Notes under the pieces: generated by a model
Seen by the model: only the letters and a program-made list of their open reading frames with translations
The model's database searches: none
Told to the model about the DNA's origin: nothing
Origin: Gemmatimonadaceae bacterium
GTDB lineage: Bacteria; Gemmatimonadota; Gemmatimonadetes; Gemmatimonadales; Gemmatimonadaceae
DNA: 32,900 bases
Assembly (NCBI GenBank): GCA_022843265.1
Contig: JALHNZ010000036.1
Location: forward strand, 1-32,900
Direction of reading: 5' to 3'
Part shown: positions 22,288 through 30,855 of the stretch, piece after piece
Layout: the number at the start of each line of letters is the position of its first letter
How positions within the stretch are numbered: position 1 is the stretch's first letter
Position numbers and translations under genes: made by a program

Positions 22288-22535
22288 GTTGCCACGCATC
22301 GCGGACAGCTCGATCGCCGATCGTCCCGGCGTCGGTCGCTTCCGCGACCACCCGACGGTGATCGAATCCCAACAACGGATCAAACGCTCGGGGCCCGCGG
22401 CCGTCGATGCGCTGACGCGCTTGCTTCGATCTCGTTGAACCTTCCTGCAACGTCCGCGAATAACCGTCCTGGCTTCGCGGTGCTAGTTTGTCGCACCATC
22501 AAACCGCACGGGCACCGTCGACCGGAGAGATAGCA
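22288..22535. other. Intergenic leader of the amidohydrolase gene
   Basis: About 250 bases hold no supported gene. The promoter of the amidohydrolase gene should lie here, but I cannot place -35/-10 boxes with confidence. The ribosome site GGAGAG is just before the ATG at 22536. Confidence 0.5.
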
Positions 22536-24275
22536 ATGACTCAAGGACCCATCACGCGAAAAGAGTTCCTCGGACTGGGCGCGCTGATGGCGGGTGCGCT
22601 GGGCGCCTCAAAGCTGCCCGTGCCGTCCGCGCCCTGGCGCGCCGATCCAGGACCGGCGCTGCCGCAACGCGGCGGCGGCATCGAGGCCGACCTCATCGTG
22701 GTGAACGCGCGCGTACTCACGCAGGACTCGGCGCTGCCGCGCGCTGAGGCGTTCGCGGTGAAGGACGGACGGTTCCTCGCGGTGGGGAGCAATGCCGACA
22801 TCCGAAACCTCGCGACGGCGCGCACGCGTGTCATCGATGCGGCGCAATACACCGTACTGCCGGGCTTCATCGACACACACTGTCATCCACGCGGCGTGTC
22901 GGAGCTCTTCGAAGCCTCGGCGAATGTGCGCACCGTCGCCGAGCTGCAGGCGAATCTGCGCACGCGTGTTGCGACCACGCCGGAGGGCTACTGGATCACC
23001 GGTGCAATGTTCGACGACACCAAGCTCGACAAGCGCCTCACGATTGCCGACCTCGATGCGGTGTCAACGCGGCATCCAATCGCGGTGAATCATCGTGGCG
23101 GGCACACAAGCTGGTACAACAGCAAAGCGTTCGAGCTTGCTGGTGTTACGCGCGACACGCCTGACCCGACCGGCGGGCGTTTCGTGCGCACGGCGAACGG
23201 CGATCTTGACGGCATGGTAGCCGAACTCGCGCGCAGTGTGATTTCGCGCGCTGGTCAGCGCGAGCGGTTCACACCGGAGCAGCAGCGGGCACGCAGCAAC
23301 GAGGGCATGGCGCACATCTCCAAACTGCTCACGGCGGCCGGACTTACGACCGTTCACGACGCCGGTACCGACCGGAACGCGATCCGCGCCTACGAAGACA
23401 CGCGCGCGGCCGGGTCACTGCGGCACCGCGCCTATTTGATGGTGCGCGGCGCGTACACCCAGCTGCGAGACGCCGGCGTGTACACCGGGTTCGGCGACGA
23501 CATGATCCGCATTGGCGGCGTGAAGTACTCGGCCGACGGCTCCGCCTCCGAGCGCACGATGCTCATGAGCACACCGTACGTGGGGACCAACGACTACGGC
23601 ATCGCGACGATGAGCGTGCAGGAAATCCACGAGGCCGTGGACGACGCGCACCGCAACAACTGGCAGGTGGGCATCCACGCCAACGGCGACGTCACGATTG
23701 ACCGTGTGCTCACCGCCTACGAGCGCGCGCTGGCGCAGTGGCCACACCCTGATCGCCGGCACCGGATCGAGCACTGCTCGCTTGTGAATCCGTCATTGAT
23801 CGCGCGCATTGCGAAGACCGGAACGATCCCAACACCGTTCTGGACCTACATCTACTTTCACGGCGAAAAGTGGGCGCAGTACGGCGATGACAAAATGCGC
23901 TGGATGTTCGCGCACCGATCGTTCCTCGACGCCGGCATTCGCGTGCCGGGGGCGTCGGATTACGGGCCCGGGCCGTTCGAGCCGCTCATGGCGATCCAGA
24001 GCATGGTCACTCGGCGCGACTTCCGCGGGAAAGAGTGGGGGCCCAACCAGAAAGTCACCGTTGACGAGGCGCTGCGCATCGCGACCGCGCACGGCTCGTA
24101 CGCGTCGTACGAGGAGCGGACGAAGGGCACGATTACCTCGGGGAAGCTCGCCGACTTCGTCGTGCTCGAGAAGGATCCGCACGACGTGGCGCCCGACGCG
24201 ATCAAGGACATCAAAGTGGCGCGCACAGTGGTCGGGGGACGGACGGTGCATCCGGAGCTCGAAGACGTGCGCTAA
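22536..24275 (+). CDS. Exported amidohydrolase (family 3, YtcJ-like)
   Basis: The 579-residue protein starts at ATG 22536, which follows a GGAGAG ribosome site; the frame is open 48 bases further upstream. The N-terminus 'TRKEFLGLGALMAGALGA' resembles a Tat signal with Arg-Lys in place of Arg-Arg, so export is likely but not certain. Family 3 amidohydrolase features are the small beta domain 'DLIVVNARVLTQDSALPRAE', the metal pair in DTHCHPRG (His115, His117), 'GIHANGD', 'RIEHCS', 'GASDYGP' and the closing 'GKLADFVVLEKDP'. Such enzymes cleave amide or related bonds with one or two metal ions. The substrate is unknown. It is convergent with the GMC gene. Confidence 0.88.
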   Translation: MTQGPITRKEFLGLGALMAGALGASKLPVPSAPWRADPGPALPQRGGGIEADLIVVNARVLTQDSALPRAEAFAVKDGRFLAVGSNADIRNLATARTRVIDAAQYTVLPGFIDTHCHPRGVSELFEASANVRTVAELQANLRTRVATTPEGYWITGAMFDDTKLDKRLTIADLDAVSTRHPIAVNHRGGHTSWYNSKAFELAGVTRDTPDPTGGRFVRTANGDLDGMVAELARSVISRAGQRERFTPEQQRARSNEGMAHISKLLTAAGLTTVHDAGTDRNAIRAYEDTRAAGSLRHRAYLMVRGAYTQLRDAGVYTGFGDDMIRIGGVKYSADGSASERTMLMSTPYVGTNDYGIATMSVQEIHEAVDDAHRNNWQVGIHANGDVTIDRVLTAYERALAQWPHPDRRHRIEHCSLVNPSLIARIAKTGTIPTPFWTYIYFHGEKWAQYGDDKMRWMFAHRSFLDAGIRVPGASDYGPGPFEPLMAIQSMVTRRDFRGKEWGPNQKVTVDEALRIATAHGSYASYEERTKGTITSGKLADFVVLEKDPHDVAPDAIKDIKVARTVVGGRTVHPELEDVR

Positions 24276-24362: not shown

Positions 24363-25994
24363 TCACGGATTACGGGCCGCACGCGCCGCGAAGTCCTCGC
24401 CCACGCGCGCCGCGGTCAGCAGGCCGAGCGCCGCGAAGGTGAGCGTTCCGTTGCAGCAACTCGCCGTCACGTTGGTTGGCGCGCCGGCGATGAACAGATT
24501 CTCGTGGTCGTGCGCGCGGCCGTCACGGTCCACGACGCTCGTCGCGGGATCATTGCCCATGCGACATCCACCGCCGGGATGTTCCTGCCCGATGTCGCCG
24601 GCCGCCGATGCATTCGAAATAATCTCGCCATCGCCGGCGCGCGCCATGCGTTGGAAGAGATCGCGAATGGTCTGCTCGGTCCACGCGCGCAGTGCGATCG
24701 ACTCGGGGGCGTCACGGAACTGCAGGCGCGGCATCGGGTCGCCCCACGCGTTCTTTGCGCTCGCGTCCAGCGTGAGTTCACTGTCTCGTGCCGGAAGCAC
24801 GTCGTAGTACGCACGCACACGCGCGGTTCCTTTCACGGTGCGCGCGCGCCAGTCGGTCATCAGCGCGTCGCCAAAGAGCAGCGCGCCCGAGTCGTCGCGC
24901 AGACGCGGCTCCTGTCCAAACGACGACTCCCACACGCGCAGGTCATGACGGATGTACCGATCGAGCGCGCCCGGCCGCATAAACTGCTTCGTGACGAGCG
25001 AGTGCTGCGCGTTCACTCCAGGAAATAGCTTCATCGGCAGACGGATCTGCGCGCCAACATTGCGATGACCGCAGATGTACTTGCCAACAAGTCCGGAGCG
25101 GTTGGCGAGGCCATTGGGATATGCACCGCCAGCCGAAAGCAGCAGCAGATGCGGCGTCCACGTGAAGCCGGCGGCGAGCACGAAGCTCTTCGCTCGGATC
25201 ATCACCTCCTGCGCGGGCGCCTTCGTGGTATTCGCCGTCGCGTGCGTCACGCGTCCCGTGCGCGCATCCGCATGTAACCGACGCACGAGCGTGTCCGTCA
25301 CGAGCCTGATGCGCCCCGAACGTACGAGCGCATCGAACGAGAAGTCGGGCGAGTACTTCGCGCCGCTCGGGCAGATCGGATAGCAGGTATCGCAACGCTG
25401 ACAGACACCTCGCCCCTGATACGGCACCGAGTTCTTCGCGCTCGGCTGACTCCACATCGCGATCCCTGCTTTGCTCGCCCACTCTCGCAGTTGTTGCAGA
25501 TTCTGGCTGAGCGGGAGCGCGGGCATGGGGAATGGCTTGCCGCGCGGATCCATCGCCGCTGGCCCTTGCTCGCCCGCAATGCCCATCCGCTCCTCGGCCT
25601 CCTGATAAAAGGGATCGAGGTCGTCATAGCTGATGGGCCAATCGTCGCCCACACCGTAGAGCGTGCGCAGACGGAAGTCCTCGGGCGAGTAGCGCGGCGT
25701 CACGCCGCCCCAGTGCAGGGCGAGCCCACCGACGTTCATCGACGGCGAAAAGCCGTACGCGGTGCCGAGCGCGTTCTGGTCGTCAATATGATCGTTGGGC
25801 CACGGCGTCTCGCCGTATTCCATCCAGCGCGCGCGCTTGAGTGCGCGCTCGCGCAGTGGAGTCGAGTGCCCACCGGCTTCGACAACAACGATCGTCGCGT
25901 CGCGTTCGGCCGCGAGCTTCTCGGCCATCAGCGCGGCGGTGATGCCGGAGCCGACGATGCAGATGTCGGCTTCAAGGACGCGGGGCGCCCTCAT
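24363..25994 (-). CDS. GMC-family FAD oxidoreductase with Cys cluster (gluconate/glucose dehydrogenase large-subunit type)
   Basis: The 543-residue flavoprotein starts at an ATG that overlaps the stop of the gamma-subunit gene (ATGA). It shows the dinucleotide motif 'CIVGSGITAALMAEKLA', 'MNVGGLALHWGGVTPRY' and the C-terminal GMC block 'EHPGGGCRMGNDPATSVV' and 'NLFIAGAPTNV'. 'GVCQRCDTCYPICPSGA' holds Cys198, Cys201, Cys204 and Cys208. Cys198, 204 and 208 fit the C-x5-C-x3-C motif that binds a [3Fe-4S] cluster in FAD-glucose and fructose dehydrogenases, and Cys201 is extra. It has no signal peptide; the Tat-exported gamma subunit would carry it out as a complex. The substrate is probably a sugar, polyol or similar alcohol (inference). 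The usual cytochrome subunit is not adjacent. Confidence 0.88.
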   Translation of the reverse strand: MRAPRVLEADICIVGSGITAALMAEKLAAERDATIVVVEAGGHSTPLRERALKRARWMEYGETPWPNDHIDDQNALGTAYGFSPSMNVGGLALHWGGVTPRYSPEDFRLRTLYGVGDDWPISYDDLDPFYQEAEERMGIAGEQGPAAMDPRGKPFPMPALPLSQNLQQLREWASKAGIAMWSQPSAKNSVPYQGRGVCQRCDTCYPICPSGAKYSPDFSFDALVRSGRIRLVTDTLVRRLHADARTGRVTHATANTTKAPAQEVMIRAKSFVLAAGFTWTPHLLLLSAGGAYPNGLANRSGLVGKYICGHRNVGAQIRLPMKLFPGVNAQHSLVTKQFMRPGALDRYIRHDLRVWESSFGQEPRLRDDSGALLFGDALMTDWRARTVKGTARVRAYYDVLPARDSELTLDASAKNAWGDPMPRLQFRDAPESIALRAWTEQTIRDLFQRMARAGDGEIISNASAAGDIGQEHPGGGCRMGNDPATSVVDRDGRAHDHENLFIAGAPTNVTASCCNGTLTFAALGLLTAARVGEDFAARAARNP

Positions 25995-26629
25995 GCCTCC
26001 CCCGTGTTAGCAAGCGGAAGTGGCGGGCGTGACGTCTGGGAGAGCAGACGGCAGTTCCCCTTCATGATGCGCGCCCCGTACGCGAGATCGGTCGCCGCGC
26101 TCGACGCGGCCCAATGCGCGAGCAGCGCAACGGCAACATGCGGTGCGGCGAGCGGATTGGTCGGCAGTCGGCTCACGCTGACCCGAGCGAGTTGCGTCTG
26201 TATCACGGCACGGCGAAGCGGCACGCTGAGCCTCGCGAACCCGCGACGATGCTTGCGGCGTGCGAGCAGATCGAGTCCCGCGAGCTGTGCATTCCAACCC
26301 GGCGCCGGATCGCTCGGCGTGTAGGTAATCTCGGCGTCTCCGTAGCCATGCATCTCCTCGGTCACCGGCGCGTAGCGCGCCAGCCACGTCGCGAAGGCGG
26401 CGATGGCCTGTGCCCGCCCGGCATCACCTAGCATCTCGGGGAGGATCGCATCGCCGAGCGCGCGGAGGAGCAGGGGGTCGAGAGCACGCGCAGCCTGTGC
26501 AGCGGGCCGCGGCGCGCGCGACTGCGTTGTCGCAGCGCCCTGCGCGTGCGCATCGGTGGCGCCGAGTCCGGATGCGGCGGCGGCCGCAAGCGCGGCGCGT
26601 TTGATGAAGTCCCTTCGGTCAGTTCTCAC
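25991..26629 (-). CDS. Gluconate 2-dehydrogenase subunit 3 (gamma)-like protein with Tat signal
   Basis: The 212-residue protein is read from GTG 26629, which places a clean Tat signal at the N-terminus: 'RTDRRDFIKRAALAAAAA' then 'SGLGATDAHAQ'. Longer frames upstream lack any signal and are probably untranslated. The mature part has the helical character and 'LRALGDAILPEMLGDAGR' segment of gluconate 2-dehydrogenase subunit 3. These subunits help fold and export the FAD subunit. The stop overlaps the GMC start by four bases, so the two are coupled. It is divergent from the amidohydrolase-PQQ gene, with 77 bases between the start codons. Confidence 0.85.
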   Translation of the reverse strand: MRTDRRDFIKRAALAAAAASGLGATDAHAQGAATTQSRAPRPAAQAARALDPLLLRALGDAILPEMLGDAGRAQAIAAFATWLARYAPVTEEMHGYGDAEITYTPSDPAPGWNAQLAGLDLLARRKHRRGFARLSVPLRRAVIQTQLARVSVSRLPTNPLAAPHVAVALLAHWAASSAATDLAYGARIMKGNCRLLSQTSRPPLPLANTGEA

Positions 26630-26706: not shown

Positions 26707-29700
26707 ATGCAAATCCGTTTCGGCAGAAACTACTCCCGCGCGTTCCGTCGAGTCGTCGTACTCGCGATCCCGTTCGCGCTCGCGGCTGGCACGCCCGCGC
26801 CGCAACGTGCTCCACTCACCATCCGTGCGGGCACGCTCCTCGACGGACGCGGTGGCGTGCAGCGCGACGTCGTGCTCACCATCGACGGTTCCCGCATCAC
26901 GCGAATCGCGCCGTGGCGCGCGGGCACGGTCGTGACATGGGATCTTTCCGCCAAAACCGTCCTGCCCGGTCTCATCGACACGCACGTTCACATTGACGCT
27001 CACTTCGGCGCCGACGGCCGCGCGAACACACGCGGTGAGACGCCCCAGCAGCGACTGCGCGCGGCGATGGAGAACGCGCAGCTCACGGTTCGCGCCGGCT
27101 TCACGACCGTGCAAAGCCTCGGCGCTGCGATCGACCTTGAACTCCGTCGCGCGATCGCCGACGGGCGCGCCGAGGGACCGCGCATCATCACGTCGGTCGC
27201 GCAGTTCAGCGACACCTCGCGCACGCCTGAGCAGATCCGCGAGTGGGTGCGCGCGACGGCTGCGCGCGGCGCCGATGTCATCAAGATCTTTGCGTCACGG
27301 AGCATCCGGGACGGTGGCGGCCAGACGCTGAGCGACGCGCAGATCGCTGCAGCTTGCGACGAGGCGCGGCGAGCGGGTCTCCGTAGCTGGGTGCACGCAC
27401 ACGCCGCCTCGGCTGTGCGCGCCGCGGCGAACGCAGGATGCACCGGCGTCACGCACGGCACGCGGGTGACGGCCGCTGAACTCGCACTGATGGCACAGCG
27501 CGGGACGTTCTTCGAGCCCAACATTGGCCTCGTCATCCAGAACTACCTCGAGAATCGCGCACGATTCGTCGGTGTTGGCAACTTCACCGAAGAAGGTTTC
27601 CGTTTTATGCAGGACGTCGTGCCACAGAACCTCGCGGTCTTCCGCGAGGCGATGCGCACACCAAATCTCAAGCTCGTGATGGGTACCGATGCCGTCGCGG
27701 GAGGGCACGGGCAGAATGCGCGCGAAATTGTTTATCGTGTGCGCGAGGCCGGTCAGACCAACGCCGACGCGATTCGCGCTGCAACATCGCTCGCCGCCGA
27801 AGCACTTGGCCTTGCCGATAGCATCGGGACTGTCGCGGAGGGAAGAGTCGCAGACCTGATCGCAGTGGATGGCGATCCGCTCGCTGACATTACCGCACTG
27901 CAGCGCATCGCCTTCGTGATGAAAGGCGGCACCGCGGTGCTCGCGCCGGAGCGGCTCGATCGTGCACGCGGTGGTGCAGTGGGGTGGGCTGCATATGGCA
28001 ACGACGCGGGCGGACTCAAGTACTCGCCGCTCGCCGACATCGACCGCACGAACGTGCACGGACTGCGCGTCGCGTTCAGATGGGACGCGAACGAGCGTCC
28101 AGTGCCGGCGAGCGAAGGCCAGAAGCCCGCGCGTCCGGGTCTGTTTCAAGCGACGCCGCTCGCAATCGGCGACACGCTCATCTTTCCCACGCCGTTCAAT
28201 CGCGTGATTGCGCTCGATGCGCGCACCGGCCGTGAACTCTGGCAGTACGACCCACAGCCTTGGAAGACGTACGGCCAGCCAAGCAACGGCACAGGCTTCG
28301 TGCACCGCGGCATCGCAACCTGGACCGATGGTCGTGCGCGGCGCGTATTCATCAACTCGCGCTGGCGCTTGATTGCGCTCGACGCAGCGAGCGGCGCGCC
28401 CATCGCGTCGTTCGGCACCGGTGGGGAGATCGATCTCACCGCCGGTCTCTCGCGCAGCGTGCGTCGTGAGCACTACACCAACACCTCGCCGCCTGTGGTC
28501 TGGGGTGATCTGGTGATTGTCGGCAACGGCGTCGGCGATCGTCTGATGTATCGCGGCGATCCGCCAGGCGATGTGCAGGCGTTCAACGTGCGCACTGGTC
28601 GTCGCGTGTGGCGCTTCAAGACGGTGCCCGAGCCGGGTGAGACAGGCAACGAAACGTGGGAAGACAGTTCGTGGCGCTACAAGGGGCACACCAATGTCTG
28701 GGCGCCGTTCACCGTCGACAGCGCGCGCGGTCTCGTCTTCCTGCCGGTCGGCACACCGAGCGACGATTGGTACGGTGGCGAGCGCAAAGGCGCGAATCTC
28801 TTCGGCGAGTCGCTCGTCGCGCTCGATGCGCGCACTGGTCAGCGCGTGTGGCATTTTCAAGTTGCACACCACGGGCTCTGGGACTACGATCTTCCCGCAC
28901 CGCCTAACCTGATGACGGTGATGCACGAGGGCGTGCGCAAGGACATCGTCGTCGTGCCGACCAAGCAGGGAATGCTCTTCGCATTCGAGCGCGCGACCGG
29001 CGCGCCGCTCTGGCCAATCGAGGAACGCGCGGTCCCAGCGAGCGACGTGCCAGGTGAAGCGGCGTGGCCAACGCAGCCGTTCCCAACGAAGCCCGCGCCG
29101 TTCACGCAACAGGGACTTGGCGTCAATGACTTGATGGATTTCACGCCGGCGCTGCGCGCGGCCGCACTCGCCGAGGTCGCACCCTACCGGCTCGGCCCCA
29201 TCTATGCTCCGCCGTCGTTGCAGGGCACCGTTGCCATGCCAGGCGTGATCGGCGGTGCGGGCTGGGGCGGGGCTGCGGTTGATCCCACTACCGGTTGGCT
29301 CTTCGTGAAGGGCTCCAACGCGCCGGCGCTCTTCCGACTGATAAAGCGCGACGTTGCGAGCGACACGGTGGACTCTCCCTACGTGATTGACCTCCGGAAC
29401 TCGTCGCTCGGCGTCTCGCAGCGCGACAACGCCGAGGGCGCCGAACGCTCGTCGGCGCGTTTGCCGGTGAACAAGCCGCCGTACGGCACGCTCACCGCCG
29501 TAGACATGAACTCCGGCGAGACCATGTGGCAGGTGCCGCTTGGTGACACCCCCGAGGTGCGCGCGCATCCCGCGCTCCGCGGCGCGGTACTTCCCTCGCG
29601 GCTTGGCGTGTCGGGCTCACCCGGCGGACTCGTCACTGGCGGGGGCCTGGTGTTCGCGTCGGGGGGCGGGCGCGTGCTCCATGCAATCGACACGCGCACG

Positions 29701-29850
29701 GGCGTTACGCTGTGGGAGCTCGACCTCGGACAACAGGCGTACTCGAATCCCATGACGTACCGCACGACCGACGGGCGTCAGTTCATCGCGATCGCGACCG
29801 GTGGAGGCTCGACGTCGCGCCTCGTGGTGCTCAGCCTGGATCGCCCCTAG
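26707..29850 (+). CDS. Exported amidohydrolase-PQQ quinoprotein dehydrogenase fusion
   Basis: One unbroken 1047-residue frame begins with AGAGG (26697-26701) five bases before the ATG and a signal segment 'VVVLAIPFALAAG'. Residues about 35-410 are an amidohydrolase. They show DTHVHIDAH (His93, His95), VIKIFAS (Lys193, likely carboxylated), VHAHAAS, GVTHGT (His250) and GTDAVAGGH (Asp328), so all usual metal ligands are present. From about residue 427 a PQQ dehydrogenase propeller follows: 'YGNDAGGLKYSPLADID', repeated 'ALDARTGRELWQY'-type blades, 'GHTNVWAPFTVD' and 'VAHHGLWDYDLPAPPNL', like the active-site region of membrane glucose dehydrogenase. No heme motif is present. It probably hydrolyses and oxidises linked substrates in the periplasm. 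PQQ needs a supply from elsewhere. Confidence 0.9.
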   Translation: MQIRFGRNYSRAFRRVVVLAIPFALAAGTPAPQRAPLTIRAGTLLDGRGGVQRDVVLTIDGSRITRIAPWRAGTVVTWDLSAKTVLPGLIDTHVHIDAHFGADGRANTRGETPQQRLRAAMENAQLTVRAGFTTVQSLGAAIDLELRRAIADGRAEGPRIITSVAQFSDTSRTPEQIREWVRATAARGADVIKIFASRSIRDGGGQTLSDAQIAAACDEARRAGLRSWVHAHAASAVRAAANAGCTGVTHGTRVTAAELALMAQRGTFFEPNIGLVIQNYLENRARFVGVGNFTEEGFRFMQDVVPQNLAVFREAMRTPNLKLVMGTDAVAGGHGQNAREIVYRVREAGQTNADAIRAATSLAAEALGLADSIGTVAEGRVADLIAVDGDPLADITALQRIAFVMKGGTAVLAPERLDRARGGAVGWAAYGNDAGGLKYSPLADIDRTNVHGLRVAFRWDANERPVPASEGQKPARPGLFQATPLAIGDTLIFPTPFNRVIALDARTGRELWQYDPQPWKTYGQPSNGTGFVHRGIATWTDGRARRVFINSRWRLIALDAASGAPIASFGTGGEIDLTAGLSRSVRREHYTNTSPPVVWGDLVIVGNGVGDRLMYRGDPPGDVQAFNVRTGRRVWRFKTVPEPGETGNETWEDSSWRYKGHTNVWAPFTVDSARGLVFLPVGTPSDDWYGGERKGANLFGESLVALDARTGQRVWHFQVAHHGLWDYDLPAPPNLMTVMHEGVRKDIVVVPTKQGMLFAFERATGAPLWPIEERAVPASDVPGEAAWPTQPFPTKPAPFTQQGLGVNDLMDFTPALRAAALAEVAPYRLGPIYAPPSLQGTVAMPGVIGGAGWGGAAVDPTTGWLFVKGSNAPALFRLIKRDVASDTVDSPYVIDLRNSSLGVSQRDNAEGAERSSARLPVNKPPYGTLTAVDMNSGETMWQVPLGDTPEVRAHPALRGAVLPSRLGVSGSPGGLVTGGGLVFASGGGRVLHAIDTRTGVTLWELDLGQQAYSNPMTYRTTDGRQFIAIATGGGSTSRLVVLSLDRP

Positions 29851-29863
29851 CGAAGAGAAGATC

Positions 29864-30722
29864 TCAAGGAATGATCACAACGTTCTTCCCGCGTGAGCGC
29901 CCGCTTTCCTGATACGCAATGGCCTCGCGTAGTTCCGGCACCGCAAACTGCCGGTCGATCACGGAGCGAAGCGTACCCTGCTTGGCCAGCGCAGATAAAT
30001 ACTCGAGATCGGCCTGCGACGTTTCGGAAAACAATCTTTAAACGTTGGCTCGACAAACCAGCCGTAGACGAGTGCGAATGATCACATCGTAGCGCGCTGT
30101 TCCGGTTGTGAAGTCTTCACTCGTGTAGTCGATCGTGACGTTGGCACCGAGAGATCGCACCAGCTCCACGTTGCGCGCGCTCGATACGCCGGTGACATGT
30201 GCGCCGAGGGCCTTCGCGATTTGCACCGCATACGTGCCGACACCGCCCGATGCACCGTTAACCAACACACGCTGACCGGTTGTCACTAAACGCGCCCGTG
30301 CTTGCGCCAAACACAGAATCACCGGGCGCAAAGCGTGTCACGTTCGCGCCGACCGCTTCAACAACGCCGGCAAAATGCACCTCTGACGGTCGGCCCATGC
30401 CGCTCGACAATCGCATGATGTACGGTTTGCCGCGCATGTAGTGCCAATCGAGCGGGTTGGTCGCGGCAACATGCACGCGCACCAGCACGCTGCTGTCGGA
30501 AAGCGCAGGGCGCGCAATGGTTTCCCAGTGAATGACGTTCGTATCACCGTAGCAGTGATAGCGTGCGGCCTGCATGGTCGGCGCACCAGCGGGTGCCGCT
30601 TCTCTCGCTGTCGCATCCATCGACGGGCAGGCTGCATCCCGGCTGAGCACGAATGCGAATATCAGCACGCTCGCGACAATGATCAGCGCGGCAGCGGTTA
30701 GACGTTTGCGTTGTTTGGTCAT
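29864..30722 (-). pseudogene. Decayed MDR-family NAD(P)-dependent alcohol dehydrogenase/quinone reductase
   Basis: Pieces of one MDR protein lie in order but in different frames. The first runs from ATG 30722 ('MTKQRKRLTAAALIIVASVL', a membrane anchor) through 'SVLVRVHVAATNPLDWHYMRG' to '[12 protein letters not shown]'. At about 30281-30292 it jumps to '[20 protein letters not shown]' (the nucleotide-binding site), losing about 45-50 codons. After 'YDVII' (30077-30091) about 50 codons are missing. A short part 'SSQRLKIVF' follows, then a frameshift near 30042 into 'DLEYLSALAKQGTLRSVIDR' and the end 'GRSRGKNVVIIP' at 29864. Three lesions rule out a working enzyme. Sizes of the losses are estimated from memory of the family. 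Confidence 0.85.
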
Positions 30723-30855
30723 GCAACGGCGTGCGCCGCCGCGCGCAACACGGTTTCGAAACAGGGACAAGACGAGCGGGACGTCGCAGTACGTATGATC
30801 TGTTGTGCTGCGGCTTAAACTTTGCGGCGCCGTTGGTTGGTCACCGCGCAATCAG

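Follow-up and report, generated by a model that had tools for sequence, protein, structure and literature searches.

A putatively exported fusion of an amidohydrolase with a PQQ-type dehydrogenase in the Gemmatimonadaceae

The Cog1228-type amidohydrolases used for comparison here are single-domain proteins of about 400 residues: the L-Arg/Lys carboxypeptidase Cc2672 (3mtw), the Xaa-Pro dipeptidase 2qs8, the Zn Arg carboxypeptidase 3be7, and the ochratoxin-hydrolysing ADH3 (8ihq); the activities known in the Cc2672/ADH3 family are release of the C-terminal amino acid from dipeptides and from N-acyl amino acids (PMC11342369). Relatives such as the ochratoxinase of A. niger form octamers (PMC11342369). 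Among quinoproteins, the closest described relative considered is E. coli Gcd, in which an N-terminal membrane domain precedes the propeller. A different redox system, the FAD glucose dehydrogenase of the direct-electron-transfer type, has a “hitchhiker” partner, and a Cys cluster is expected in hitchhiker-type FAD dehydrogenases (PMC6719666). PqqU, whose signature is Y/F/W99, R304, and R365, is reported to be widespread in Gemmatimonadetes (PMC12124388). A literature search, not an exhaustive one, found no paper describing the fusion of amidohydrolase and PQQ propeller reported here, or its gene set.

The window, that is, the whole stretch of Gemmatimonadaceae DNA that was analysed (32,900 nt), includes the fusion gene and a divergent pair of redox genes:

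26707..29850, + strand: fusion gene, amidohydrolase plus PQQ propeller, 1047 aa; a single open frame, full-length in five other genomes
26707..26805, + strand: likely Sec-type signal peptide, residues 1–33, from hydrophobicity and an Arg-rich start
26806..27948, + strand: amidohydrolase domain, residues 34–414 (PF01979; 3mtw match; metal residues invariant in six fusions)
27949..27984, + strand: linker, residues 415–426, between the domain matches; low pLDDT, varying among fusions
27985..29847, + strand: PQQ-type propeller, mGDH-like, residues 427–1047 (PF01011 complete; alignment with E. coli Gcd; quinoprotein Z score)
28867..28899, + strand: HHGLWDYDLPA, residues 721–731, with putative catalytic Asp726 (Gcd Asp466) and Asp728, from the alignment with E. 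coli Gcd
25991..26629, − strand: gluconate-2-dehydrogenase-subunit-3-like hitchhiker protein with Tat signal RRDFIK, from its translation, start, and position
24363..25994, − strand: GMC oxidoreductase (PF00732/PF05199) without a signal of its own, with Cys cluster C198/C201/C204/C208

A sequence-only reading of this DNA had proposed that one uninterrupted frame joins a complete amidohydrolase to a complete PQQ propeller, and the full Pfam profiles bear this out, as do five more genomes. Amidohydro_1 (PF01979) matches residues 84–411 over profile positions 1–345 of 345 (E 4e-38), and the PQQ propeller profile (PF01011) matches residues 427–1027 over positions 1–595 of 595 (E 1e-192). The N-terminus has an Arg-rich start followed by a hydrophobic stretch, disordered in the AlphaFold2 model; the most hydrophobic 19-mers of the chain begin at residues 10–16, a propeller strand (1026) aside, and no transmembrane stretch past the N-terminus stood out in hydrophobicity across the whole chain. 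The signal peptide suggests a periplasmic location. The only cysteines are Cys217 and Cys245, and the chain has no CxxCH haem c motif of the kind that would mark a quinohaemoprotein alcohol dehydrogenase.

The amidohydrolase half superimposes on 3mtw with Z 51.8 and rmsd 1.9 over 371 residues, and it resembles the Cog1228-type comparators generally (fold Z 48–52, 29–37% identity, all metal residues in common), differing from them in its added C-terminal propeller. The five metal ligands listed in the earlier reading (His93, His95, Lys193, His250, and Asp328) are all present, but that list left out His230; the full set (HxH, Lys, His, His, Asp) is invariant in the alignment of all six fusions. 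Against the NCBIfam equivalog for Xaa-Pro dipeptidase (NF051886) this half scores 227 bits, below the cut-off of 500. Overall it appears to be of a prolidase, carboxypeptidase, or N-acyl-amino-acid hydrolase type, which gives a candidate activity.

The propeller half has a structural Z of about 35 against quinoproteins and is 30% identical to E. coli Gcd over 599 columns. Residues H533, R534, D611, W665, D726, D728, and K753 align with Gcd His262, Arg266, Asp354, Trp404, Asp466, Asp468, and Lys493, which we take to be PQQ-site or catalytic residues (a literature search on their roles gave nothing). The HHxLWDxDLPA active-site region pointed out previously is found as HHGLWDYDLPA, and Asp726, Asp728, and Lys753 occur in 28 of 28 homologous propellers aligned. 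There are differences from Gcd as well: Asn355 and Asn607 are replaced by Arg and Lys, and the amidohydrolase takes the place of the N-terminal membrane domain. The mGDH model TIGR03074 gives 433 bits against a cut-off of 832.65, with the match starting at profile position 154 of 783. The suggestion that both active sites are intact agrees with the conservation of the amidohydrolase metal residues and PQQ-site residues in these sequence comparisons. By these comparisons the fusion is a genuine, predicted exported two-enzyme protein with both sets of site residues in place, and both halves are presumably active.

Five more full-length fusions, 74–88% identical and free of internal stops, turned up when 395 genomes of the phylum were searched, and the whole chain aligns across the six species, including the junction. 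The frame break near the junction that the sequence-only reading had named as possible counter-evidence was not found in any of the five genomes, and a frame-error artefact is ruled out, since independent genomes encode the same full-length chain without a stop. Pairwise dN/dS (Nei-Gojobori) is 0.07–0.42 for the amidohydrolase half and 0.07–0.23 for the PQQ half, well under 1 in both, which argues that both are kept under purifying selection. The fusion is thus a real, small, conserved enzyme class. It is found in 6 of 179 Gemmatimonadaceae species genomes (~3%), the same six as in the phylum search, so that the expectation of numerous matches in related genomes is borne out only weakly: fused homologues exist, but they are few. 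The six fall in three genera, with one, four, and one species; other members of the same genera are without it, making the distribution patchy. None was seen among 396 genomes of Acidobacteriota. One of the six (L042, in G302) is in a genome classified under a different genus, is closest to a g2 fusion, and has no GMC gene nearby; this placement could reflect horizontal transfer or a misplaced contig of an incomplete assembly.

Such a rare and patchy distribution is what might be expected of two unrelated enzymes joined by chance and merely tolerated. That the fusion has been kept through divergence to 74% identity, with purifying selection on both halves, and that genes of the two families repeatedly stand side by side in other genomes (see below) make this very improbable.

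The history of the two halves was followed in separate trees. In both, the fusions group as a single clade (99% SH-aLRT) whose internal branching order agrees; the method was a quick one, with branch support taken from brief searches and some of the deeper branches unsettled. The result fits a single fusion event followed by joint descent. On the amidohydrolase tree the sister clade (96% SH-aLRT) consists of proteins of the same family, Gemmatimonadaceae, that also have a C-terminal beta-propeller, but of the FG-GAP/UnbV type:

L049:4416–7073, − strand, and L050:3695–6388, − strand: amidohydrolase plus FG-GAP/UnbV_ASPIC propeller, about 885 aa; also in L051, L052, L053, L104, and L112

By this reconstruction, the amidohydrolase lineage is one that has carried two different propellers. 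The nearest unfused amidohydrolases (Acidobacteria, Sphingomonas) end 8–12 aa past the domain. On the PQQ tree, solo genes stand closest to the fusion, and next comes a clade with a neighbouring amidohydrolase. One PQQ gene, L016, was considered as a possible fission product of the fusion and rejected, its N-terminus being a signal peptide with no amidohydrolase remnant.

Amidohydrolase and PQQ genes occur as separate neighbours at L054, L057, L099–L103, and L109, and in the Acidobacteriota at L118 and G444 (L023, L025, and L027–L029 denote the genes also labelled L057, L099, L100, L102, and L103, with the neighbouring amidohydrolase present). A GMC gene and its hitchhiker often accompany such separate genes. 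The order in L118 is amidohydrolase, PQQ, hitchhiker, GMC; in G444 the amidohydrolase and PQQ genes are divergent. L118 was also considered as a full-length fusion, and rejected because its two genes lie 138 bp apart and are read in different frames. Recurrence of the separate pair in several lineages of two phyla supports the functional link between the two enzymes that had been suggested from the fusion. The amidohydrolases of these pairs are spread over several subclades of the tree, none of them that of the fusion, so the association seems to have had more than one origin. Direct joining of an ancestral neighbour pair is not supported, given this difference in subclade and the sister position of the FG-GAP-fused amidohydrolases. 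Downstream of the separate pairs in L057 (7848–9463), L099, L100, L102, and L103 are two mutually similar neighbour genes to which no family was assigned.

The hitchhiker gene in the window is divergent from the fusion, with 77 bp from start to start. It has no Pfam match above threshold, and its name therefore rests on its position and Tat signal. Together with the GMC gene it adjoins five of the six fusions (the window and four of the other five). The pair resembles the FAD glucose dehydrogenase with hitchhiker in the CxxCxxCxxxC cluster of the GMC protein and the Tat signal of its partner; it differs in lying outside the fused chain, as neighbours. Many other separate amidohydrolase genes adjoin a GMC and hitchhiker pair without a PQQ gene. 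All these loci, the separate amidohydrolase-PQQ pairs included, were selected for their similarity to the query, and frequencies among them do not represent a random sample. In three Acidobacteria loci (L135, L137, L138), two amidohydrolases of the same family as the fusion half are in tandem next to a GMC gene. Peptidase genes (S9 or M28) adjoin the module repeatedly. In four species of one genus (L038, L039, L040, L041) the fusion is surrounded by genes for an S9 peptidase, an aminotransferase, HPPD, and homogentisate dioxygenase. The window has a second, different amidohydrolase (Amidohydro_3; 22488–24275), convergent with the GMC gene, and a 197-aa frame (30258–30851), perhaps truncated, in which a GroES-like alcohol dehydrogenase domain is represented by its N-terminal part alone. 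A link to Zn alcohol dehydrogenases was considered and rejected: one adjoins the PQQ gene only in L045 and L046, and the ADH_N frame of the window does not match it.

The fusion, together with the repeated gene neighbourhood, would fit a direct hand-off, in which the product released by the amidohydrolase goes straight to the active site of the propeller and is oxidised there at once, just as it would fit functional coupling in general. An AlphaFold2 model was built from 47 sequences (mean pLDDT 82.1, pTM 0.63). The amidohydrolase is confidently modelled and the propeller moderately so, while residues 416–436 have pLDDT under 50; with this low-confidence linker and pTM, the model fixes no relative placement of the two sites. 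In the alignment of the six fusions, linker length and sequence both differ. Direct hand-off, the main mechanism put forward in the sequence-only reading, seems rather unlikely.

If the propeller is to work as a dehydrogenase it should be supplied with PQQ. In a profile search, pqqC was absent from the six fusion genomes and two others, using a model that does detect the gene elsewhere in this phylum (its cut-off is exceeded in 34 of 298 genomes); pqqE and pqqB likewise gave no match above cut-off in the fusion hosts. PQQ loading would therefore depend on uptake. With E. coli PqqU as query, each of the six genomes has a near-full-length TonB receptor (E 1e-68 to 1e-78), and in six of six the top receptor carries F99, R304, and R365, the residues of the published PqqU signature, which four second-best receptors lack. 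The presence of this importer in all hosts makes it plausible that the fusion propeller is loaded with scavenged PQQ. More widely, pqqC was found in none of about 73 genomes bearing close propellers and in 34 among the rest of the 298, a descriptive count that ignores relatedness and assumes the 298 to be the genomes up to G299.

The lack of PQQ biosynthesis genes in the hosts could also be read, along with fusion of the closest amidohydrolase relatives to an FG-GAP/UnbV propeller, as a sign that the propeller is only a binding or scaffold module placing an amidohydrolase on its substrate or partner. The catalytic and PQQ-site residues are, however, invariant in the fusions and the solo relatives aligned, the hosts have the importer, and redox genes flank the fusion; a scaffold role alone is accordingly judged quite improbable.

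Taken as a whole, the evidence is probably best explained by an exported bifunctional amidohydrolase and quinoprotein acting on a shared conjugate or pathway. Several points count against this: the FG-GAP propellers of the sister amidohydrolases, which allow a non-catalytic role; the dependence of PQQ loading on uptake; the difference in subclade between the fused amidohydrolase and those of the neighbour pairs; and the presence of the fusion in just 3% of family genomes. The metal-dependent amidohydrolase half would cleave the amide linkage of a peptide or amino-acid conjugate, and the mGDH-like propeller, taking PQQ imported by PqqU, would oxidise either that conjugate or a part released from it, at an alcohol or sugar group. 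The GMC flavoenzyme, partnered by the Tat-exported hitchhiker, would probably oxidise the same or the next compound. Fusion would couple the two activities by location and stoichiometry rather than by a fixed channel. The substrate common to both halves, like the electron acceptor, is presumed here; a shared substrate or pathway seems the best-supported reading. It is also conceivable, as a speculation on which we would put rather little weight, that amidohydrolases of this lineage serve as a modular scaffold to which different C-terminal propellers have been added (PQQ here, FG-GAP/UnbV in the sister clade). On that view the PQQ form would be bifunctional, combining oxidation and hydrolysis to break down a conjugate of an amino acid or peptide that has so far not been recognised among the substrates of quinoproteins.

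Fusions show which enzymes cooperate. Here the fusion, along with the separate neighbours in two phyla, ties a family of peptide/amide hydrolases to a PQQ dehydrogenase and to a flavin dehydrogenase pair, in soil bacteria that seem to obtain their PQQ by uptake instead of synthesis. This linkage offers a way, open to testing, of finding substrates for the many quinoproteins that have none assigned.
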